Below are positions 6,250 through 37,285 of a stretch of DNA of 64,000 nucleotides, one piece after another; within the stretch, counting starts at the first letter, position 1, and every line of letters begins with the position of its first letter. Location: contig NZ_CP119127.1 of the NCBI RefSeq assembly GCF_030128825.1, forward strand, positions 416,001 through 480,000, in the 5' to 3' direction. The notes under the pieces are model-generated. The model saw nothing but the letters and a program-made list of their open reading frames with translations. It was not told the origin of the DNA and ran no database searches. The stretch is from Sphingobium sp. WTD-1. GTDB lineage: Bacteria > Pseudomonadota > Alphaproteobacteria > Sphingomonadales > Sphingomonadaceae. The position numbers and the translations under genes were made by a program.

Positions 6250-7521
6250 TCACTTCTGCCCTTCCCATGGTTCCAATATGATGTCTCGCTTCACCATCAC
6301 GCGCAGAGGATGGCCAGGTCTGATGGTGAGTGTCGGAGGAATCGTCAGTTGCTGCCCGATGATCTGTCGGCCTGCCTGACTGATGCTGTCCTGCGTGCCA
6401 TATCGCAGCGCTCGCACGAGACTTCCGTCATCGTCGGCCATAACCTCGGTCCCCATGTTCAACAGGGTCGAGATGAATGCTGCGCCGAGCAAGCCGGCCC
6501 AATGATTGTCCACACCATCCTGCAGGCCCGACCTGCCGGACTGATCGGCGCCCTGAAGCCGGTCGAGCAGAATCGAACGGCTGTCGGGAAAAATAAGGCG
6601 GTCCCAGGCGATCAATATCCTCTGCTGTCCCGCTGCGGTCGCACTGTCATATTCGCCGATCAGCCGAGACCCTTGCGGGATGAGCAGGATCTGGCCCGAC
6701 GGGCTATCATAAACATTTTCCGTCACCTGCGCGGTGATAAGGCCGGGAAGATCGGATCGGATTCCTGTGATCAGCGCAGCAGGGATGACATTGCCCGCCT
6801 GCACGACATAGGGCGATGCCGAATTCGCAACGCGCTGTGTGCTTGCCTCGGCGATAGCGACAGGCGCCAGAAACGTGCGCCTATTCGTATCGGCGGTTCG
6901 GGACTGGAGGGGCTGGCTTTCAGCTTCAGCCCTCGGGTCCCGGGGCGCTCTGGCCTCCGCTGGCAGCACCCCGTCCGGTTCATTCGCCCTTGCAACCGTT
7001 GGCGCTGAGGCAAGGAACAATCTGCTCGATAGCGCGGCCTCACGCATGCTCCTCTGGCGCTCCCGCTCTTGCTGGCGCGCCGTCAGGCGCTCATCGCTGG
7101 GTGGCGAGCGGCCGGGGTTTGTCAGACTTGGCTGTTGTTGCGCTTCAAGCAGCGGCTGTCCCGGGACGTCGGTTAATGGCACCCCCAATTTGGGAATTTT
7201 GGAATAGTCGTCGGGTGCTGAGGCTATGGTTTCGGCTTTGATGCGGCCGTGCGAGACCGGTATGTTTTCGACGCCCTCGATCGTCTTTGGCCGCAGGGCA
7301 TAGATCAATGTTCCGGCAATGCAGATGCAACTGACGGCCGCCAGAAGCCCGATCGCTTTCCGGGACAGACGCATGGCCGGCGGCGAGGCCGCCCGCAACG
7401 CAACCGCCTCAGAATTTTTGTCTTTTGATACATTGGCGGGCGGGATGTCGTCATGTTTATCGATCTCGACTTGGTCCTCGACCTTGTCGCCCGGCTTGCT
7501 GCTATTTTCTGCGCTGCTCAT
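6250..7521 (-). CDS. trbI: Conjugal transfer protein TrbI (VirB10-like)
   Basis: A 423-residue energy-sensing scaffold of the type IV secretion core complex, spanning inner membrane to outer membrane. It has a cytoplasmic charged N-terminus, one transmembrane helix at about residues 54-76, a long Pro/Gln/Arg-rich periplasmic linker and the C-terminal VirB10/TrbI beta domain (VVQAGNVIPAALITGIRSDLPG, then YDSPSGQILLIPQGSRLIGEYDS). The ATG at 7521 overlaps the trbG stop as TAATG. Its stop overlaps the start of the disrupted DUF2274 gene. Last intact gene of the operon. Confidence 0.95.
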   Translation of the reverse strand: MSSAENSSKPGDKVEDQVEIDKHDDIPPANVSKDKNSEAVALRAASPPAMRLSRKAIGLLAAVSCICIAGTLIYALRPKTIEGVENIPVSHGRIKAETIASAPDDYSKIPKLGVPLTDVPGQPLLEAQQQPSLTNPGRSPPSDERLTARQQERERQRSMREAALSSRLFLASAPTVARANEPDGVLPAEARAPRDPRAEAESQPLQSRTADTNRRTFLAPVAIAEASTQRVANSASPYVVQAGNVIPAALITGIRSDLPGLITAQVTENVYDSPSGQILLIPQGSRLIGEYDSATAAGQQRILIAWDRLIFPDSRSILLDRLQGADQSGRSGLQDGVDNHWAGLLGAAFISTLLNMGTEVMADDDGSLVRALRYGTQDSISQAGRQIIGQQLTIPPTLTIRPGHPLRVMVKRDIILEPWEGQK

Positions 7522-28231: not shown

Positions 28232-28644
28232 GATATCGCTTGATGGCAACGCCGGCTGTGATGACGGCAAATGGGACATTTTGCCCGGTCCGCTTTGGAG
28301 CGCCAAAACGGGAGACCGGACATTCGGATCACATCTACGTGATGAGCGCAGCCGCCCTTCATATTTGCCGTTTAAGCTGACGCACGAGCATTCCGGAAGC
28401 AGCGATTCGATCGTCTCCGTATTAATGCGATGCGCTGGAGGGAGGCCGCATAAAAATTGGCCTGCGCCAAGGCAGGGGCTTCTGCGACCGGGCGGAGCCC
28501 GGCATCCCGCCAGTCGATCATTACAGGATGGCCGCGACGCCACAGGCGACGCGAGGCTGAGCGATCCGCCGCATGCGGATCGTGGCCCTAGAGTGGAGGT
28601 CGTGCACCTGCGCGAGGCGCCCAAATCACTCCAATACCCAATAC
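28232..28644. other. Intergenic region before the defence island
   Basis: No supported gene; long open frames on both strands (28223-28660 minus, 28281-28685 plus) are low-complexity and mutually overlapping. The composition becomes AT-rich toward the end, where two operator-like palindromes begin. The junction between housekeeping and defence genes lies here. Confidence 0.4.
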
Positions 28645-28663
28645 AAAGTAGCAATGCCACTTT
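28645..28663. promoter_or_regulatory. Operator-like imperfect palindrome 1
   Basis: AAAGTAGCAATGCCACTTT is a 19-base near-palindrome with the same AGCAATGC centre as the perfect palindrome 34 bases downstream. Regular spacing of about three helical turns suggests binding of the same dimer to both. Confidence 0.65.
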
Positions 28664-28678
28664 CCCCTTGTGTTACTC

Positions 28679-28697
28679 AAAATAGCAATGCTATTTT
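28679..28697. promoter_or_regulatory. Operator-like perfect palindrome 2, overlapping the promoter
   Basis: AAAATAGCAATGCTATTTT has perfect 9-base arms around one central base and ends five bases before the regulator start codon. Its last six bases could be the -10 (TATTTT) with TTGTGT at 28668-28673 as -35. That would make the transcript leaderless, in line with no ribosome site before 28703. The dyad would then sit in the spacer, as at MerR-controlled promoters. Confidence 0.65.
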
Positions 28698-28702
28698 AGA
28701 CT

Positions 28703-29395
28703 ATGGCCCGCGACCTAACCGAGCAGAAATACACGCAAGGGGACGTCCTTGCGGTCACGCGGCTACGTAAGGATCTGCTGCAGACGTGGATCAACCGGAA
28801 GGTTGTGGCGCTCGGCGAACAGCATCCTGGCAGCGGGCGTCGGCGGCTCTATTCCAAGATCGATATCGTCAAGCTCGCGCTGATGCGGCGGATTGCAGAT
28901 TTCGGGCTCGACCTGTCGATCGGGCGCGATCTTGCAAGCGAGGCCGAGCGGCGCCTGCTCAGCGATCGCGGCGTCGAGTGGGGGGTGCACCTCTCGATCA
29001 AAAAGCGCGAAGCGACGCATGAGGAGATCAAGGTCGAGATCATCTCGGCTGGATATTCAACGCTCTCGCTCCACTATGGCGCCACGGTCGGCGACTCTCG
29101 CGACATGCGCGTGTCCAATTTTACCGAACCGTTCGAGCCGATGTTCAGCCGCCGAACGAAGGAGTTACTCGTCGAGGAACGGCCGATCGATCCCGACAAG
29201 CGCGACGCGTTGGCGCGTGCCGGCGTTCACGCCGAGCCGGCGCTGATCTTCCCGTTCGGCGAGATCGTCAATGGCGCGCTGGTCCAAATCGATGCGCTTG
29301 ATCAGGGGCCGCTGCCCGGCGTGATGGATGCGATGATCGAAATTGAGCTCGGCAAACGCGCTAAAGCGATCGAGTTGAAGAGCGAACATGGCTGA
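28703..29395 (+). CDS. MerR-like HTH regulator of the nuclease cassette
   Basis: A 230-residue protein whose first 90 residues read as a MerR-type winged helix (GDVLAVTRLRKDLLQTWINRKVVAL, GRRRLYSKIDIVKLALMRRI). The rest has no recognised domain but looks like a mixed strand/helix ligand or dimerisation domain. It is the first gene of an operon with a membrane protein (8-base overlap) and an Mrr-like nuclease. The two palindromes directly upstream suggest autoregulation. No Shine-Dalgarno is visible, which fits a leaderless message. Confidence 0.7.
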   Translation: MARDLTEQKYTQGDVLAVTRLRKDLLQTWINRKVVALGEQHPGSGRRRLYSKIDIVKLALMRRIADFGLDLSIGRDLASEAERRLLSDRGVEWGVHLSIKKREATHEEIKVEIISAGYSTLSLHYGATVGDSRDMRVSNFTEPFEPMFSRRTKELLVEERPIDPDKRDALARAGVHAEPALIFPFGEIVNGALVQIDALDQGPLPGVMDAMIEIELGKRAKAIELKSEHG

Positions 29396-29780
29396 CGCCC
29401 GCGCCCGCGAGCAGCTGCGCCAGGAGCGCGAAGCGTTCAATCGGGCATGCCGGCATAGCGAAGCGTGGTTCCGGCTGCGGCTCGCGCTCGGCTATCTGGG
29501 CCTCGGCATAATGCTCGCGATCACGGGCACTGCGGCATGGGTGCTGTTCCACCCAACGACCTATGGGCCGCTGCCGCTCGGCACGGCGGGAGGCGCGATC
29601 CTGATCCAAACGCTCGGGCTCGGCTTTGCGATCGTGCGGATAGTGCTGCTCCAGCCGCAGGTCGCGGGTCTCACACCGGCGACGACAGTCGCCAATCGCG
29701 CGCGCACGCCAGCAAGTGGCAAGTCCCCCAAGGTAAGGATCGCCACGACGCCCAACAGCGCCGTTGCGAACGAGGGTTGA
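29388..29780 (+). CDS. Small membrane protein of the nuclease cassette
   Basis: A 130-residue protein with a charged N-terminal helix (residues 1-30), two hydrophobic helices (about 35-53, LGYLGLGIMLAITGTAAWVL, and about 62-82, GTAGGAILIQTLGLGFAIV) and a basic, Thr/Ala-rich cytoplasmic tail. Not recognised. It overlaps the regulator and sits four bases before the nuclease gene, so it belongs to the same operon. Two-helix membrane partners are common in defence cassettes, but its role is unknown. Confidence 0.65.
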   Translation: MADARAREQLRQEREAFNRACRHSEAWFRLRLALGYLGLGIMLAITGTAAWVLFHPTTYGPLPLGTAGGAILIQTLGLGFAIVRIVLLQPQVAGLTPATTVANRARTPASGKSPKVRIATTPNSAVANEG

Positions 29781-29784
29781 TCCG

Positions 29785-30792
29785 ATGGGCCATATCATCA
29801 TGCCGGCCTTCGCCTTTCGCAGTGCGCTCAGCGAGGATAGTGGTGTACGATCGGGGTTCGCGCTGAGCGAGGCGGACATGCTCGCGCATCTGCCCGCCAA
29901 CCATCATCTGCGCGAACGCCTGATCAGCGATGAGGTGCTGCGCCTCGGATCGGACGACTATGCCGAGGCGGTCGGCGACCTCCTGTTCGCGCTTGGGGCG
30001 ACACCGAAACCCGGTATGCCGACGCTCGGTATGCGCCTGATGGCGCTGCTTGGAGGTGATTGGCGGTCGCAGTTCGCACTTGACGAGTTGCTGACCATCG
30101 AGGCGGTCGCGAACCATTATCTGCGCTTGCGGAACCAGAATGACGATGAGCAGGCGGCGATCTTCGCCGAGCTGAAGGCCATGGTCGACGGCAAGGCGGG
30201 CGTGTTCGATGCACTGATCGAGGCGATGACCCACGATTTGGCCTTTAATCCCCATTTCACGCGCGACGTTGCCAACGCCGATATGGTCGCGCTCAGCGCG
30301 CTGTTTGCCAGCGAGCAACTGCCGGCCGACGGCGCGCAGTATTTCGACCAGCGGTTCATCAACTATCTGGGCAGCCAGCCCGACAAATTGGGCGATATCC
30401 ATTGGCGGCAGTTCGAGGGTCTGACAGCCGAGTGGTTCCAGCGCAGCGGCTATGACGTCGAGCTGGGGCCAGGCCGCAATGATGGCAGCGTCGACCTGCG
30501 GCTGTGGCATCGCGGCGCGCAGCCGGGTGCACCGCCCGCGGTCATCGTCCAGTGCAAGCGGCAGAAGCAGAAGGTCGAGCGCGTAGTGGTGAAGGCGCTC
30601 TATGCCGACATGCTCGAAGAGCGCGCCGGTGCCGGGCTGGTCGTCACGACGAGCGACATCAGCCCAGGCGCCGCCAAGGATGTCCGCGCACGTGCCTATC
30701 CGATCACCACGGCGAACCGAAAACAGGTACAGGACTGGATCCAGGCGATGCGCAAACCTCATGCCGGGATCGTCAGCGACTTGATCGGCTAA
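29785..30792 (+). CDS. Mrr-like restriction endonuclease domain protein
   Basis: A 335-residue protein with a helical N-terminal region of about 200 residues of unknown family and a C-terminal PD-(D/E)XK nuclease domain of the Mrr type. FEGLTAEWFQRSGYDVELG precedes the catalytic Asp237 in NDGSVDLRLW and the QCKRQK strand (Lys258), then AGLVVTTSDISPGA. Mrr-type enzymes cut modified or foreign DNA. The ATG at 29785 is four bases after the membrane-protein gene. An IS5-family element now follows 27 bases after the stop. Confidence 0.82.
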   Translation: MGHIIMPAFAFRSALSEDSGVRSGFALSEADMLAHLPANHHLRERLISDEVLRLGSDDYAEAVGDLLFALGATPKPGMPTLGMRLMALLGGDWRSQFALDELLTIEAVANHYLRLRNQNDDEQAAIFAELKAMVDGKAGVFDALIEAMTHDLAFNPHFTRDVANADMVALSALFASEQLPADGAQYFDQRFINYLGSQPDKLGDIHWRQFEGLTAEWFQRSGYDVELGPGRNDGSVDLRLWHRGAQPGAPPAVIVQCKRQKQKVERVVVKALYADMLEERAGAGLVVTTSDISPGAAKDVRARAYPITTANRKQVQDWIQAMRKPHAGIVSDLIG

Positions 30793-30819
30793 GTGCCAAT
30801 GCGAACCAAGGACAGGCTA

Positions 30820-31668
30820 GGCGGCGTTGACAAAAGGGATTCCCAATCGGTGCGTGTTCTGATTCAAGGCTGCTCTTTGGGGAGCGGTCATGGATCGAGG
30901 GGATTTGTCGGACGCGGAGTGGGAGTTGATCGGGCCGCTACTCCCGTCCGAGCGTGGGAGGCATGCCCGACCGGCCGGCGATAACCGGCGCTTTCTCAAT
31001 GGCATGCTGCATGTGCTGCGGGTCGGTTGCCCGTGGCGCGACATGCACGAGCGCTATGGCAAGTGGAACTCGGTCTATGTCCGGTTCCGGCGCTGGGCGG
31101 AGCAAGGCGTCTGGGACGCCATGCTGCAAACGTTGGTCGATCTGGGCCTCACCGACGACTGGCAGCACATGATCGACAGCACCACGGTTCGCGGCCACGT
31201 CTCGGCAGCGGGCGGAAAAGGGGGGCTTGTGCGCAGGCTTTTGGTCGATCACGCGGCGGCTTTACGAGCAAGATCCACGCCCGCTGTGACAATCAGGGCC
31301 TCCCTGTCGGCTTCATCCTTACCGGCGGCGAGGCATCGGACTATACGGCGGCCGACGATCTGATGAACCTGCCGCTGCCCAAGCCCAGGGCGCTGCTCGC
31401 CGACAAAGGCTATGATGGCGACAGGTTCCGGGAGAACCTGCTCATGCGAGGCATCCTGCCCGTCATCCCGCCGCGCTCCAACCGCAAGGTGCCGGCCCAT
31501 CCCGACTACCGGCGCTACAAGGATCGCAATCGTGTCGAGCGCATGTTCGCCAAACTCAAGCAGCAGCGCCGCATCGCCACCCGCTACGACAAGACCGTCC
31601 TGTCGTTCGAGAGCTTCATCAACCTCGCTGCCGCGCGACTATGGCTGAAAGCTTTTGTCAACACCGCC
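30820..31668 (+). mobile_element. IS5-family insertion sequence (IS427-like group), complete, 849 bp
   Basis: The inverted ends are GGCGGCGTTGACAAAAG (30820-30836) and CTTTTGTCAACACCGCC (31652-31668), differing at one base. Each end is flanked by TA (30818-30819, 31669-31670), the short duplication seen in this group. It carries a two-frame transposase. It has landed between the Mrr-like nuclease gene and the HEPN-like gene. The flanking sequence rejoins smoothly when the element is removed, leaving AAGGACAGG close before the ATG at 31673. Confidence 0.92.
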
Positions 31669-31671
31669 TAG
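30890..31671 (+). CDS. IS5-family transposase made by -1 frameshifting
   Basis: The first frame (30890-31363) begins MDRGDLSDAEWELIGPLLP and carries the first catalytic Asp (HMIDSTTVRGH). The second frame, open to 31671, carries the second Asp (LLADKGYDGD) and the Glu (NRVERMFAKLKQQRRIATRYDK). The frames join by a -1 shift in the run AAAAGGGGGG (31216-31225), as in other members of the group, giving a protein of about 260 residues. The stop TAG (31669-31671) lies outside the right inverted repeat and uses the TA duplication. Confidence 0.9.
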
Positions 31672-31672
31672 G

Positions 31673-32140
31673 ATGCGTCACGACGAGATATCCGAGGAAC
31701 TGCGCGATCTCGCGTTCGACTACTTCTACTGGTTTTCGCGCTTTGAGTTCGCGCTGAAGGAAGCGCCTTATCTCGAGGACGACACGGTCGGTGCGCGCGC
31801 CATGCCCGGCTGGGAGAAGTTCTTCGCCGATTGGAAGGACCGATATACGCTGACGCCCGCAGGTCAAAAGCTGATCGACGCGAAACCGCAGCGGCAGGTG
31901 GTCGGCCAGAGCGGTCTCGACTTCGCCGAAGTTCGCTTCGACGACAAACCCAGCGATCTCGTCAAAGTGATCCGGCTCGCTAAAACCGTGCGGAACAATC
32001 TGTTCCATGGGGGCAAGCATGGCAGCTCCTATTGGGACGATCCCGACCGGATGCGCGCTCTGATCCCGATCGCCAAAGCCGCGCTCGACGATATTGCGCA
32101 GCAGACCGGCCTCGGCGCGGACTACAGCCGCTACTACTGA
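31673..32140 (+). CDS. HEPN-like small protein, downstream of the IS insertion
   Basis: A 155-residue, mostly helical protein. Two features suggest the HEPN fold: an N-terminal helix with FSRFEFALKE, and VRNNLFHGGKHG giving the R-x4-H motif (Arg107, His112) of HEPN RNases, positioned late in the chain. HEPN proteins often act as RNA-cleaving effectors in defence and toxin systems. Before the IS arrived it would have been the fourth gene of the MerR/membrane/Mrr operon, with its ribosome site AAGGACAGG about 8 bases upstream. Now the ATG lies one base after the transposase stop. No nucleotidyltransferase antitoxin is adjacent. Confidence 0.7.
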   Translation: MRHDEISEELRDLAFDYFYWFSRFEFALKEAPYLEDDTVGARAMPGWEKFFADWKDRYTLTPAGQKLIDAKPQRQVVGQSGLDFAEVRFDDKPSDLVKVIRLAKTVRNNLFHGGKHGSSYWDDPDRMRALIPIAKAALDDIAQQTGLGADYSRYY

Positions 32141-32201
32141 CGCGGCACGCAGAACGCCGCGCCGACACAACATCAACGACGGCACTCGAAAAGCCCCGCC
32201 G

Positions 32202-33860
32202 TCAGGCGGGCCGCACCTCGGCGAGCGTGACCTGATAGCCGAGCGGTTTGAGAATGGTTGTGATCAGCCGCGTCTGGCTGGCATGCATCGAGTCTGACGG
32301 CGCTTTGATCTCGGCAAACCGAACCTCCCTGTCTCGCCAGAGCGTCAGATCAGGCCAGCCGGCGCGCAGATCATAGGGCGCGTCGGCGAAGAGCCGCGCG
32401 ATCGCGGCCAGCCGCTCGGTGCCGAGGGCGTCGAACAGGCCGCTGACATGATCCCAGCGGACTCGCGGATAGAAGGCGGGCGTCTCGCCGGCGGTGGCGG
32501 CAATCATCGCCCAGTTGCGGCTGAGCTGCGCCGTCGTCGCGCGCCCGCAGGCATCGATCAGCGCACCGCGCGAGAAGCGATCCTCATCGAAGGCAACGTT
32601 CTGCGCATAGAGCGCTTCGATATAGGTGTCGGCGTTGCGCGGTTGGAGCCGCGCGAAGGACGCAGCCTTGATCAGGGTGAGCATCAGCCCGCCTTCGGCG
32701 GCCGCACCCGACCAGCCTTGTGCCACATAGTGGGCGAGCGCGGCTTCCTCGACGCTCGCCCAAGCGTCCTTGGGATGATACCGCCATAGCTTCGGCTCGC
32801 CGCAATGGAGCGCGATCACTTCATGCACGATCCCAACGCGCTCGGCCTGCCGCTCGAACTTGCTGAGCTTGCGAACCGGAGTAGATCCTGGCGACAGTGC
32901 CTTGCGCAACTTGTCCGCCCGCCGCGTGACGCCAACTTGTGGGTCGAGCGCAAGCGCCTCGTCGTAGGCGACGAGCGCTGCCGCCCCGTCACCGGTTTCC
33001 TCGAGCAATTCGCCGCGAATGCGCAAGGCGCGGGCGCGGACGTAGACATCGTTATCCTGAGCGGCACGTTCGAGCCCAGCGATGATCCGCGCCACGAAAT
33101 CGGCATCGCGCACTTGGCCTGCATCTCCGAGCAGCGATCGGATGGCCGTAAGGTCGCCGGCGGCAACACGGTGCGTCTGCCAGCCGTCCCGATCAATCAT
33201 GGTACCGTCGAAGCGATAACCGATTCGCTCGGCATAGCGTCGGATCAGAAACAGCTGCCGCGCGGCCGTGTCGAACTCATAGCCATCGGCCCAGCCGGTC
33301 TCCGGCTCCCACCGGGCGATTTCGGCCGCGGTCGTTAGGTCGAACAGCATGTAGAGGCAGCTATCCGGGCTGCCGGGTGCGTTCGCAGTTTGGCAGATGG
33401 CGAACGTGCCGTCGTTCGATAGGCCGTTGCTGATCAGGTTGGCGGCGATGTTGAGCGCCATGATCGCGGTACCGTCGCGGCGGAAGGCGACGAACCGCCC
33501 CTTGAGCCCTTCGCCAAACATCCAGTCGTTGAGGATGAGGGTGCCGTCGTTGGCGACCTTTCCGCCCTGCGGACGCTCAAGCCGGCCTTCGCAGATGAGG
33601 CGGTCCTGTTCGAGCAGAGCCCAGCGTCCATGGCCCTCCGCGCGATTGCCACCGATAGTTCCTTCCGGATTGCAATCCGACCAGATCAGCCGAAACTGGC
33701 CGTTCGGTGACTTGGCGAACTGCCCGACGAAGTCGAGCGCATCGATCGTGATCAGCCGTTCGGAGAATTCGCGAACTTGAAGTTGCGCTGACGGCTCCAC
33801 GGCCGATAAGGCAACTTCAGCCTTGTTCGTGCCGAACAGCCGATCGAGAAGGCCCTTCAT
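32202..33860 (-). CDS. Large protein with TPR-like region and C-terminal VRR-NUC nuclease domain
   Basis: A 552-residue protein. Residues 1 to about 240 are strand-rich repeats with W/D motifs (RLIWSDCNPEGTIGGN, FVAFRRDGTAIMALN, MLFDLTTAAEIARWEPE), resembling a beta-propeller-type sensor. Residues about 265-330 look like a TPR (RGELLEETGDGAAALVAYDEAL). The last 65 residues match a VRR-NUC nuclease: AGWPDLTLWRDREVRFAEIKAP with the D..E-x-K acids, then SQTRLITTILKPLGYQVTLAEV. The architecture is unfamiliar to me. It is a single gene running toward the HEPN-like gene, inside the defence island. Confidence 0.75.
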   Translation of the reverse strand: MKGLLDRLFGTNKAEVALSAVEPSAQLQVREFSERLITIDALDFVGQFAKSPNGQFRLIWSDCNPEGTIGGNRAEGHGRWALLEQDRLICEGRLERPQGGKVANDGTLILNDWMFGEGLKGRFVAFRRDGTAIMALNIAANLISNGLSNDGTFAICQTANAPGSPDSCLYMLFDLTTAAEIARWEPETGWADGYEFDTAARQLFLIRRYAERIGYRFDGTMIDRDGWQTHRVAAGDLTAIRSLLGDAGQVRDADFVARIIAGLERAAQDNDVYVRARALRIRGELLEETGDGAAALVAYDEALALDPQVGVTRRADKLRKALSPGSTPVRKLSKFERQAERVGIVHEVIALHCGEPKLWRYHPKDAWASVEEAALAHYVAQGWSGAAAEGGLMLTLIKAASFARLQPRNADTYIEALYAQNVAFDEDRFSRGALIDACGRATTAQLSRNWAMIAATAGETPAFYPRVRWDHVSGLFDALGTERLAAIARLFADAPYDLRAGWPDLTLWRDREVRFAEIKAPSDSMHASQTRLITTILKPLGYQVTLAEVRPA

Positions 33861-34011
33861 GAATCAACTCCACCGCTTCAATTCCGATACTCTAGCACAG
33901 CGCCATACGGCAGCATCGCACTGATCTTATCGGCGGGCGCCCCCTTACCGCTATGCAGCCACAATGCTGGTGATCGAAGCGCCAGTTTCTCAGCACCGAA
34001 CGAACACTCCA

Positions 34012-34482
34012 TCAACGTTTCGTTCGGCGCTGCACGATGGTCTGCGCGAGGATACGGCGATTGATCTTGCGCTTCCAATCTAGTTGCGCCTGCGAGAGGA
34101 CGCGCTTCCGGGCAGTCTGCAACAAGAAGCGATACTCTTTTTCGCTATAAAGATAGCCCATGCGATAGGCATGCTCGATCAGATCATGATTGGCATTGGC
34201 CGTATCATCTTGGGCAATGCGCTTCAGGCCGTCGAACAGATTCCCAGTGCTGATCTGTATGAAGCGGTTGATGCAGATATTACCAACATAAGTGCTTATG
34301 CCATTATGGCGATTGCGTATGTAGCAATGCTCCTTAATGTCCTGACCACAAGGGCAATTATCCCATTCGTCGCTAATTTCTACCGCGACGAGATCCCACT
34401 CCTGACGCGCTTCTTCAAAGCTTGATGCGACTGAAAGAGGAAGAATATGCGCCTTGAGTTGCTCGAGATTTTGAGATGCCAT
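34012..34482 (-). CDS. Cysteine-rich putative zinc-binding protein, possible fourth CBASS gene
   Basis: A 156-residue protein with a conserved-looking cysteine cluster CPCGQDIKEHCYIRN followed by STYVGNICINRF, which can bind one zinc. The C-terminal third is helical and very basic (TARKRVLSQAQ, KRKINRR, QRRTKR), suggesting nucleic-acid contact. The ATG at 34482 has GAGGAGG upstream; a TTG start at 34506 is possible. It lies 43 bases after the patatin effector stop on the same strand, so it is probably cotranscribed with the CBASS genes. It is not a known CBASS component that I recognise; similar CPCG-type proteins occur elsewhere without assigned function. Confidence 0.6.
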   Translation of the reverse strand: MASQNLEQLKAHILPLSVASSFEEARQEWDLVAVEISDEWDNCPCGQDIKEHCYIRNRHNGISTYVGNICINRFIQISTGNLFDGLKRIAQDDTANANHDLIEHAYRMGYLYSEKEYRFLLQTARKRVLSQAQLDWKRKINRRILAQTIVQRRTKR

Positions 34483-34525
34483 CGTTGCGTTGTCCTCCTC
34501 AAACAAGCGGATTATCGATCATCCA

Positions 34526-35581
34526 TCACAGCCACGCGCGCGGGCCATGATAGGCGCGGTAAGGATCAGCAAGCCGGCCGAGAAACAGTTGGGCGACCTG
34601 AGCGTCATAACGGTCTGCGAGCGTTCGCGCCAAGGGCGGCAATTCGGCGATCGACCGGCTCACATCATCCAGTTGGATGGGCTTATCGAGTGTCGGCGCA
34701 TCGATCCTGACCAAATTCTCGCGTCCGATAAGCAGGCCGGCCTGACCCAAAGCATTCTGACTGGCCAGATGCATCGCCGAAGAGATGATCGCACGCCAGT
34801 GAAGCATGCCTCCGAAACGGATCTGCGCGTTGGAAATCCTCATCTCCTGCTCGCCACAGCCAAGCGAGAGAATATCGACGAACGCCGCGTCTACGTCGTT
34901 GCAGGTGAGCGCATCTACCAGACCCAGCATGATAGGATTATTCGCCCACACGCCGCCATCCGCGAATTGCCGGTTCCCGTTCCGATAGACAGAAAAGAAG
35001 GTCGGAGCGGCAGATGTGGCCAGGGCGACCGTCTTGATTTCTTCTTTCCAGTCGAGCCGGAAATCCGGGTGGTGAGGGGTCTTGAAAATCGTGACTTCGT
35101 TGAAACCGTCAAATGCGGGGATGCACAGCCTTACGTTCGCCTGCCCGAACAGTCGCCCATCGAAAATTTTGTGGAGCTGCGCTTCAAGCGGAGCGCGATC
35201 ATAGCGGTAGAGGTGGAGAGATCGAACGAAATCCCAAGCTTTACCCAGACCGAGCAGTTTATGTCGTTGCGGAAAAATCGCCGCTCCATGGCGCATGTAG
35301 ATCTCGAGCACTTCGGACGCGCGCATGCCGTTCGCAAGAGCCAGGGCAATGATGCCGCCGGTAGAGGTCCCAGCAATCAAGTCAAAATGTGCGCCGATGC
35401 TTTGACCGCCGAGATGACGCTGCTCGAACTCAGCAAGGATCGCAGCTGGCAATATGCCTCGTATCCCGCCACCATCGATCGATAGAATGCGAAAGCGTTG
35501 CGCCGCCGGCCACGGGAGACGCTCCCGCCTGCGCTGGAGTGTCCCTTCAGACCGCCGCGATGGATTTGCTGCTGCCGTCAA
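34526..35581 (-). CDS. CBASS patatin-like phospholipase effector (CapV-like)
   Basis: A 351-residue patatin-fold lipase. It has the oxyanion-hole motif DGGGIRG (36-42), nucleophile GTSTG (Ser73) and the catalytic Asp of FADGGVWANNP. CapV effectors are switched on by cyclic nucleotides made by the CD-NTase and destroy the inner membrane of infected cells. The position directly after the E2-like gene, with a 35-base overlap, supports this role. The first 28 residues are a basic leader absent from many homologues. Confidence 0.9.
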   Translation of the reverse strand: MTAAANPSRRSEGTLQRRRERLPWPAAQRFRILSIDGGGIRGILPAAILAEFEQRHLGGQSIGAHFDLIAGTSTGGIIALALANGMRASEVLEIYMRHGAAIFPQRHKLLGLGKAWDFVRSLHLYRYDRAPLEAQLHKIFDGRLFGQANVRLCIPAFDGFNEVTIFKTPHHPDFRLDWKEEIKTVALATSAAPTFFSVYRNGNRQFADGGVWANNPIMLGLVDALTCNDVDAAFVDILSLGCGEQEMRISNAQIRFGGMLHWRAIISSAMHLASQNALGQAGLLIGRENLVRIDAPTLDKPIQLDDVSRSIAELPPLARTLADRYDAQVAQLFLGRLADPYRAYHGPRAWL

Positions 35582-36047
35582 GCAGACGTTCCTCCCGGGT
35601 TGCGTGTCGTCCGCCGCCTTTCCATTTCTTGGTGAGGAGCCAGCCCTCGTAGAAGTAGAGGTAGCGAGCTGTCCAGGGCACGGTTGTGTCGGCGAGCAAA
35701 TCCTCTGGCGTCCATTCCTTGTTGTAGGGGTCGAAGAGACAGAGATTTGGGAGATGAGGGTCGTCTTTGTTCACGTAGACATGCGGTATCGGCCCCTCCT
35801 CATAACTTGGGTGTCTCTCGAGAACAGGGTCCAAGATCTGCACGCGGGGCTGCACGGAGATAACGCGGAACGCTTCAGGTGCGCGCGGCACGCGGTAGAT
35901 TATACGTACCGTATACCAGGTCTTTTGAGGCTGAAGGGAACCAACCCAGACTGCGCCGCGATCGGACCGTTCCTGAACCCGAAAGTCCGGCCAACGCATC
36001 GCCATGGTCGCGATCTGGGTGTCGATATCGATCAATCCGGGATGCAT
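35547..36047 (-). CDS. CBASS E2-like conjugating protein (type II short)
   Basis: A 166-residue protein with an E2-type core: strands VWVGSLQP, TVRIIYRVP, RVISVQPRVQI, then HVYVNKDDPHLPNLCLFDP in which Cys103 is the likely catalytic cysteine, and a W/Y-rich C-terminal helix (WTARYLYFYEGWLLTKKW). In short type II CBASS the E2 acts without a fused E1/E2 Cap2 and without Cap3, as here. It conditions the CD-NTase by conjugation. It overlaps the CD-NTase gene by 16 bases and the effector gene by 35. Confidence 0.85.
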   Translation of the reverse strand: MHPGLIDIDTQIATMAMRWPDFRVQERSDRGAVWVGSLQPQKTWYTVRIIYRVPRAPEAFRVISVQPRVQILDPVLERHPSYEEGPIPHVYVNKDDPHLPNLCLFDPYNKEWTPEDLLADTTVPWTARYLYFYEGWLLTKKWKGGGRHATREERLLDGSSKSIAAV

Positions 36048-37285
36048 CCGCCCCCCATCTGCGTACTGGCACGAGCAGGCGTGCTGATCGCCGAAACCAC
36101 CGTGGGCGCGGCCGCGGTAACGATCCGCCCGGTTGATCCGAACCGGAGAGCACCCTTTTCGGCTTCGGCCTGGCTCCGCGTGAGCAACTCATCGAGCGCG
36201 AAGCTTGCGGCGGTCTCTCCGAACAGGTCGTCTAGGATCAGCTTCATTTCCGTGAGGGAGATGTCCGCCTCCTGCAAGCGACGAAGCTGGCGTGAGAGAT
36301 GGGCCAGATCCTGAACGTAAAGACTCTGCTCGTCGATCTTAGCCGGCCAACGGTCGGTAAAGACATCCGGGACATAAGATGGGTTGGTCACCGTGAGCAG
36401 GCGGCCCGATCGGCCCTCATCGCGCAACCGAGTCGAGATGTAAGACGCGATTGAGATCACCTCGTCCGCAAGCCCGCCCCCGGTCGGAGCCACTTCGAGC
36501 GCCAGCGCCGCGAGGACGACGGACGGAGGTTTACGCCCCTGCCGATGCCGATACCGCACGTCGCGGTTCCGCTTGATGAGTTGGAGCGCGACGACCCGCG
36601 CGGACTTCTCCGAGAGCGGAACTTGCTCGGGCAAGGGCTCCGTATCGGCTTTAGCAAAAGCCCCATCCATCGTGAGGCCACGCGCGTCGAACATGGCCGC
36701 GAAGACGGGATCAAATGCCGTCTCGCGATTGAACAAATCTGCAAAGCCCCAGGGATTAACCGGCTTATGATAGGATTCGGCATTCTCCTCACGCCAGTGG
36801 AACAAGTGGCCGGCGCGTTCAGGGTGACCAGTCAACCGGGCGATCGGCATGAGATCAACGCGAACGCCATCGTCATAGGTGACCGTCACGCAGCGGCTGT
36901 TGCGCGTCACCATCCCACGGTAGCGCGTTCCCTCTTCACCATTAATGGCCTTGAAGAGCTGGTCGAGAATTGTCGCGGGATCGCTGGATGGCGAGATATC
37001 CAGCTCGATCGTCACATCAACATCGTGCTGATCCTTTTTCACCCGCGAAGCGATCGCAGTGCCTGTCGCAAAGCTACCGCCAGGGTAGCAGGTGACCACC
37101 TTGCCCTCGAGCGGGCTGCCCGACCGGTCGACCCAATTGCAAAGCGCATGATAGTGCTTTTCTGCCTCCCCATGCTTGGTGGGGGAGAGCTGTACGCGCC
37201 GCGCGACATCCATCAGCAGCGCGTCCGCCGGTGCAGGCAACGGAAGCCGGTGCAACCATCGACCGGGGCGTTGTTCGTAGGTCAT
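36032..37285 (-). CDS. CBASS cGAS/DncV-like nucleotidyltransferase (CD-NTase)
   Basis: A 417-residue second-messenger synthase. The nucleotidyltransferase core shows YPGGSFATGTAI (residues 68-78), the paired Asp88 and Asp90 in HDVDVTIELD and the third acid Asp144 in GVRVDLMP. The C-terminal helical domain includes PPSVVLAALALEVAP. The C-terminus, a tail ending in a small residue region, would be the site of E2-mediated conjugation. The clade and cyclic product cannot be read by eye. It is the first gene of the leftward CBASS operon, divergent from the HTH/peptidase pair. Confidence 0.92.
   Translation of the reverse strand: MTYEQRPGRWLHRLPLPAPADALLMDVARRVQLSPTKHGEAEKHYHALCNWVDRSGSPLEGKVVTCYPGGSFATGTAIASRVKKDQHDVDVTIELDISPSSDPATILDQLFKAINGEEGTRYRGMVTRNSRCVTVTYDDGVRVDLMPIARLTGHPERAGHLFHWREENAESYHKPVNPWGFADLFNRETAFDPVFAAMFDARGLTMDGAFAKADTEPLPEQVPLSEKSARVVALQLIKRNRDVRYRHRQGRKPPSVVLAALALEVAPTGGGLADEVISIASYISTRLRDEGRSGRLLTVTNPSYVPDVFTDRWPAKIDEQSLYVQDLAHLSRQLRRLQEADISLTEMKLILDDLFGETAASFALDELLTRSQAEAEKGALRFGSTGRIVTAAAPTVVSAISTPARASTQMGGGCIPD

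Follow-up and report, generated by a model that had tools for sequence, protein, structure and literature searches.

A putative self-regulated nuclease cassette headed by a CvkR-like regulator in a Sphingobium defence island

We examined a 64,000-nucleotide stretch of the Sphingobium sp. WTD-1 genome (the window; 416001-480000 on contig C1, one of the six contigs that make up the 5.67-Mb genome), in which five genes, here called A to E, encode a MerR-like regulator (A), a protein with two hydrophobic stretches (B), a predicted Mrr-type nuclease (C), a HEPN-motif protein (D) and a VRR_NUC-domain protein (E). The interpretation that we favor, with moderate confidence, is that of a mobile defence cassette under its own control: A would act on two palindromic operators to shut down the promoter from which it is read and would thereby keep the downstream genes silent. 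It is based on paired palindromes before A at seven of seven A loci, the proximal copy lying over a TAYTT(T) sequence, and the CvkR-like predicted fold of A, together with the pairing of A with B at five of the seven loci, a homology that starts at the operator and purifying selection on A to E. The A-B pair is likely a rare control module of defence islands, autorepressed and with exchangeable nuclease payloads, and the whole is probably a repressor-guarded defence cassette of previously unreported make-up with a CvkR-type regulator.

Paired palindromes and the promoter of gene A

Seven distinct A loci were compared, namely, the window, loci L003 to L007 from 84,980 species genomes (L003 being that of S. 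solaris) and L008 from the viral collection IMG/VR; a match in genome G156 has the contig coordinates of L003 and was counted together with it. The paired palindromes were first spotted by eye upstream of A and then scored against AAARTRGCANTGCYAYTTT, which gave, out of 19, 19/19 for the pair in the window, 19/18 in L003, 18/18 in L004, 18/17 in L005, 18/18 in L006, 18/15 in L007 and 16/16 in L008. To avoid circularity, an operator matrix was trained with the tested locus left out, together with any close relative of that locus among the window, L003, and L004, and with this matrix the observed second-best site was reached by none of 1000 dinucleotide shuffles at each of the seven loci. When whole genomes or records were scanned for both copies at no more than three mismatches, the promoter of A was the sole place found in six of seven; the proximal copy of L007 has four mismatches and was hence missed. 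The centres of the two palindromes are 34, 34, 33, 19, 19, 27 (L007), and 33 bases apart.

The proximal palindrome ends 5 to 7 bases before the start codon of A at the seven loci, and its right arm, which reads TAYTT(T/C/A), starts 11 to 13 bases before that codon. A TTG hexamer lies 17 to 18 bases upstream of this arm at six of the seven, and no Shine-Dalgarno-like sequence precedes A at any of them. This arrangement suggests that the promoter of A is leaderless and that A would cover its putative −10 box.

The product of A carries the N-terminal winged helix-turn-helix of the MerR family, and the library and fold matches agree with the earlier note on this DNA, which had placed a MerR-like regulator at 28703. 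The best match of its predicted fold was CvkR (137 of 148 CvkR residues aligned), and the parts of the CvkR fold outside the helix-turn-helix, i.e., the dimerization part and the C-terminal helix, are also present in the model of A. The CvkR binding motif AnnACATnATGTnnT was not found before A. Because the sites there are of the form AAARTRGCANTGCYAYTTT instead, we class A as CvkR-like in fold and not as CvkR. Among the nine proteins encoded at 28703-37285, no match to Cas12k or Tn7-type families was detected.

Comparison by blastn with S. solaris matched 28642-30821 and 31668-33919 at 87 to 88% identity, and that with L004 matched 28642-29684 at 84%. Both homologies begin 3 bases ahead of the distal palindrome. 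The one with L004 stops inside the variable tail of B, much as though other DNA had been attached to the front end at this point. Ratios of nonsynonymous to synonymous substitution rates against L003 were 0.116 (A), 0.318 (B), 0.117 (C), 0.097 (D), and 0.18 (E), indicating purifying selection on all five, and thus that A to E are real genes. Gene E, absent from the list of genes in the earlier note, falls within the shared block.

We infer that A binds these sites and represses rather than activates, that its mRNA is leaderless, and that A, B, C, and D would be read as a single transcript. With A bound at the paired operator, its own promoter would be off, and B and C-D would be held back. Infection might then loosen A from the operators directly, through B, or via a phage-borne relative competing for the sites. 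Upon release, B, C, and D would be made; B would act in the membrane, C would cut foreign or damaged DNA, D would cut RNA, and the phage or the cell would be stopped.

Distribution of the genes and alternative readings

Gene A is rare. A collection of 5.8 billion clustered proteins contains 58 relatives; within the family, 397 genomes yielded two with A (the window's own and one other), and within the class, 385 genomes yielded one (the window's own). No A match was found in the phages or plasmids of annotated collections, and a second viral scan with distant A relatives returned only the L008 contig again. On that contig (L008:7998-8594), A stands alone behind the same paired palindromes, and its neighbours look by eye like terminase, portal, and capsid genes. 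In Methylobacterium frigidaeris (L007:8001-8642), A is likewise alone and is followed by a small gene that by eye resembles a phage excisionase. For B, 19 relatives were among the matches listed. In S. solaris, A, B, C, and D stand in the same order, uninterrupted.

Several observations weigh against a self-regulated cassette. Single operator sites (at most three mismatches) were genome-wide no commoner than a reversed control pattern, with 6 versus 3 in the window genome and 2/5, 6/6, 6/6, 5/13, 6/6, and 2/0 in the others; these counts are at control level, and single sites elsewhere are no evidence of a regulon. A cruder shuffle test, on perfect arms only, was not striking in L003, L004, and L007 (347, 587, and 244 per 1000); elsewhere it gave 1 per 1000 in the window, which is striking, 19 in L005, 33 in L008, and 79 in L006. 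The −35 matches are poor, and a consensus scan often favours another hexamer pair. CvkR itself apparently does not regulate its own promoter (PMC9938897). As to the genes behind the operator, C and D follow A-B at only two of the seven A loci (window and L003), at L004 and L005 A-B is not followed by a partner on the same strand, and at L006 (8689-8949) the frame of B is broken after 86 residues.

The earlier note had joined A to D into one system in which two nucleases act together. It had also supposed a membrane or DNA signal read by A or B; of such a control, the sequence shows an operator pair dedicated to A. The common direction and order in S. solaris and the place beside CBASS genes speak for such a unit, but the places where C and D occur tell against an obligate four-gene system, which we consider highly improbable. 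Both genes are altogether absent from the genomes of L004 to L007, the four other genomes with A. The note had also named beforehand the independent occurrence of the four genes as a refutation, and this is what was seen for part of the set, since relatives of C and D occur without A or B. A search at an E value of 1e-4 covered 31 further D loci and 19 further loci of C relatives, as fetched, some with flanks of only 1.5 kb, and met neither A nor B at any of them. Relatives of D are found by themselves in plasmids and viral contigs and those of C by themselves on plasmids, and a D profile matched nothing besides the window's own genome among the 385 class genomes.

These solitary relatives would also fit a looser arrangement, in which A and B would work as a unit on their own, and C, D, and E would be unrelated defence genes of the island that happen to lie behind this unit and have no functional coupling to it. 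That L004, L005, and L006 have A-B and lack C and D points the same way, as does the location of the E relative of the L004 genome away from A-B; set against the evidence from the operators, the shared order, and selection given above, this arrangement appears to us rather unlikely.

Small two-helix membrane proteins are among the effectors of other defence systems, and B might itself be such an effector, harming the cell once A lets go, so that A-B would be an abortive-infection pair and the nucleases extra cargo. A-B is the most conserved pairing, the N-terminal third of B is nearly invariant with a variable tail, and no effector lies behind A-B in L004 and L005. However, B matches no library used, its toxicity is hypothetical, and L006 retains A despite the broken frame of B; we regard an effector role as distinctly improbable.

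A broader proposal, which we put forward as doubtful, is a switch family of CvkR-type MerR proteins common to defence cassettes and temperate phages. It starts from the same tandem palindrome before A in bacterial cassettes and in the L008 viral contig. A phage-borne A could grip the host operators and either shut the nucleases off upon entry or trip them by competition or titration; the immunity of the host would then be wired to the repressor of the phage itself. A-B would be a plug-in controller for different nucleases, as the Mrr and HEPN genes at two loci and a different, weakly Mrr-like nuclease at L006 might indicate. That nuclease (L006 9073-10005) lies behind the broken B; as a second A-B payload it was set aside as a hint only, with an Mrr_cat match (E value 0.0064) too weak to reach the cut-off, no PADLOC match, and the break in B.

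Relation to known regulators and defence systems

The self-regulated cassette resembles known systems in parts. CvkR (Alr3614) is reported to be a MerR-type protein that represses type V-K CRISPR-associated transposons, has a palindromic target and is made from leaderless mRNA (PMC9938897). A is like it in predicted fold, in a putative palindromic target, and in its link as a putative repressor to a mobile defence-related element, and the promoter of A may be leaderless too; A differs in its palindrome (AAARTRGCANTGCYAYTTT versus AnnACATnATGTnnT), in having its sites at its own promoter, in its greater length (230 amino acids), and in adjoining Mrr and HEPN-motif genes. RptR is reported as a small protein that represses a restriction-modification defence island in Gammaproteobacteria (PMC12255303). 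Like the putative repressor A, it is kept with its own site and restriction-type defence, and the promoter contains several copies of its minimal site, TAGCTA, likewise a short palindrome; it differs in going with type I restriction-modification. BrxR and CapW are reported as regulators with a WYL domain that control defence systems such as BREX and CBASS (PMC9122588, PMC9122589, PMC9122601); they are repressors whose genes stand, like A, at the front of a defence locus, and they differ from A in the WYL domain, the matches of A being MerR type.

Of the effectors, C shares its catalytic part with Mrr-type (type IV) restriction nucleases and PDC-S02 and differs in its A-led operon setting, and D shares both sequence motifs of the HEPN superfamily. 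PADLOC 2.0.0 contains no model for an A-B-C-D set; at 0.01 it left A, B, and D unmatched and matched C partly. We found no publication on such a gene set, or on a CvkR-type regulator with such genes, in the open-licence literature; subscription papers were mostly outside this search.

How defence islands are silenced until needed is largely open, the known examples being the WYL regulators and RptR. To our knowledge, the CvkR-type fold has been known solely from CRISPR-associated transposons; if our interpretation is true, it also controls nuclease cassettes. Its exact operators would then already be known, which opens binding, repression, and the inducing signal to direct tests. A viral copy of A has these operators in front of it too, so a specific phage-host cross-talk is testable as well.

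Components of the cassette and its surroundings

The features of the cassette are listed in Table 1. A and B overlap by 8 bases (29388-29395) and 4 bases separate B from C (29781-29784), which bears out the tight packing of A-B-C described earlier.

Table 1. Features of the cassette in window coordinates
Feature	Position	Strand	Remarks
Distal operator-like palindrome, AAAGTAGCAATGCCACTTT	28645..28663	.	Counterparts at 7/7 A loci
Possible −35 hexamer, TTGTGT	28668..28673	+	18 bases before TATTTT; weak, 3/6 consensus bases
Proximal operator-like palindrome, AAAATAGCAATGCTATTTT	28679..28697	.	9-base perfect arms; right arm = possible −10 TATTTT (28692-28697)
Gene A, MerR-like regulator	28703..29395	+	230 amino acids; fold predicted to be CvkR-like; start not preceded by a Shine-Dalgarno-like sequence
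Gene B, two hydrophobic stretches	29388..29780	+	130 amino acids; N-terminus conserved, tail fast-changing
Gene C, predicted Mrr_cat nuclease	29785..30792	+	335 amino acids; read from ATG 29785; Mrr_cat 3.2e-21
IS5-like insertion element	30821..31667	+	847 base pairs (bp), between C and D; absent at L003 junction
Gene D, HEPN-motif protein	31673..32140	+	155 amino acids; RNNLFH = residues 107-112
Gene E, convergent	32202..33860	-	552 amino acids; VRR_NUC domain and TPR-like stretch
Block common to window and S. solaris L003	28642..33919		87-88% DNA identity outside the insertion element; presumed cassette limits

The hydrophobic stretches of B span residues about 27-55 and 64-96, as expected from the two-helix membrane protein noted before at 29388, and B is predicted to sit in the membrane. 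Its N-terminus, RAREQLRQEREAF, is nearly invariant, and the N-terminal third is nearly unchanged while the tail varies. No domain or defence library used gave a match to B.

C matched Mrr_cat at 3.2e-21 (76 bits versus a cut-off of 21), in keeping with the Mrr-like nuclease proposed earlier, and PADLOC PDC-S02 at 2.1e-9 over residues 207-301 only, the catalytic part. An Mrr-type active site consists of an acidic residue plus Q-x-K, and the stretches DGSVDL and VQCKR, picked out by eye in the translation, would fit it. Relatives of C occur in 17 of 397 family genomes; a full-length match was found only in the window's own and G156, and the other 15 match mainly in the catalytic part.

In D, RNNLFH (R-N-x3-H, which fits Rx4-6H with a polar residue after R) is invariant in all 53 aligned relatives, and a second motif, Ex3[KR], is present as EFALK, with E25 invariant and K29 kept in at least 90% of the 53. 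The model places RNNLFH close to where a long helix ends, as reported for the HEPN superfamily, which has Rx4-6H with a polar residue after R and an Ex3K motif (PMC3710099). No Pfam HEPN family matched D, no library used gave it that name, and in a fold comparison with solved structures no HEPN chain stood out, while both sequence motifs are present. The earlier note had named failure of a structure comparison with HEPN as a refutation; the comparison speaks neither for nor against a HEPN fold. D has 2132 relatives, 120 of them among the matches listed, and forms a family of its own.

Between C and D lies an insertion element, called IS5-like here after the name given in the earlier note. The transposase is spread over two overlapping frames (30890-31363 and 31027-31671), and the inverted ends agree in 16 of 20 bases at 30821/31667. 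As read from the printed flanks, a presumed 4-bp duplication, CTAG, stands on either side (30817-30820 and 31668-31671), from which the length of the element follows. The prediction that D would lie about 29 bases past C without the element agrees with the uninterrupted L003 junction, where C ends at 7299, D starts at 7329, and the two are exactly 29 bases apart. The frame of D is intact with or without the element, which separates D from the AAGGACAGG stretch, its upstream sequence in L003, and probably weakens D expression in the window genome.

E matched VRR_NUC at 2e-8 and has a TPR-like stretch. Beyond it, a CBASS locus on the minus strand (34526-37285) encodes a patatin-like phospholipase (NF041079, 248 bits at a 200-bit cut-off), an E2 protein, and a CD-NTase-type oligonucleotide cyclase; with CBASS genes beside the cassette, the neighbourhood is a defence island. 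A 164-amino-acid gene between E and CBASS (34012-34506) matched nothing in Pfam, PADLOC, or NCBIfam. Elsewhere, defence proteins near A-B include Lamassu-like, SIR2, and type IIG proteins at L004 and AbiE and PDC-S06 at L005; L003 gave a partial LmuB match only, and the tested neighbour at L006 gave none. E was rejected as a strict partner, since its relative in the L004 genome sits elsewhere and plasmid relatives cover less than 80%. That relative (54%; L071, L072:3998-5749) lies apart from A-B among genes that look defence-related by eye.

On a Blastomonas plasmid (L034), a DUF433 gene and a 130-amino-acid gene behind D were considered as counterparts of A and B and rejected; their sizes are alike and their sequences unlike, with none matching at 1e-4. 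In the same locus (L034:3021-4468), D overlaps an upstream gene of 326 amino acids that has the look of a restriction-type nuclease by eye and no Pfam match. Other D relatives (L052:5923-6435 and L040) are single genes within runs of phage tail genes, like extra phage genes, and in L040 annotated baseplate genes adjoin the D relative.
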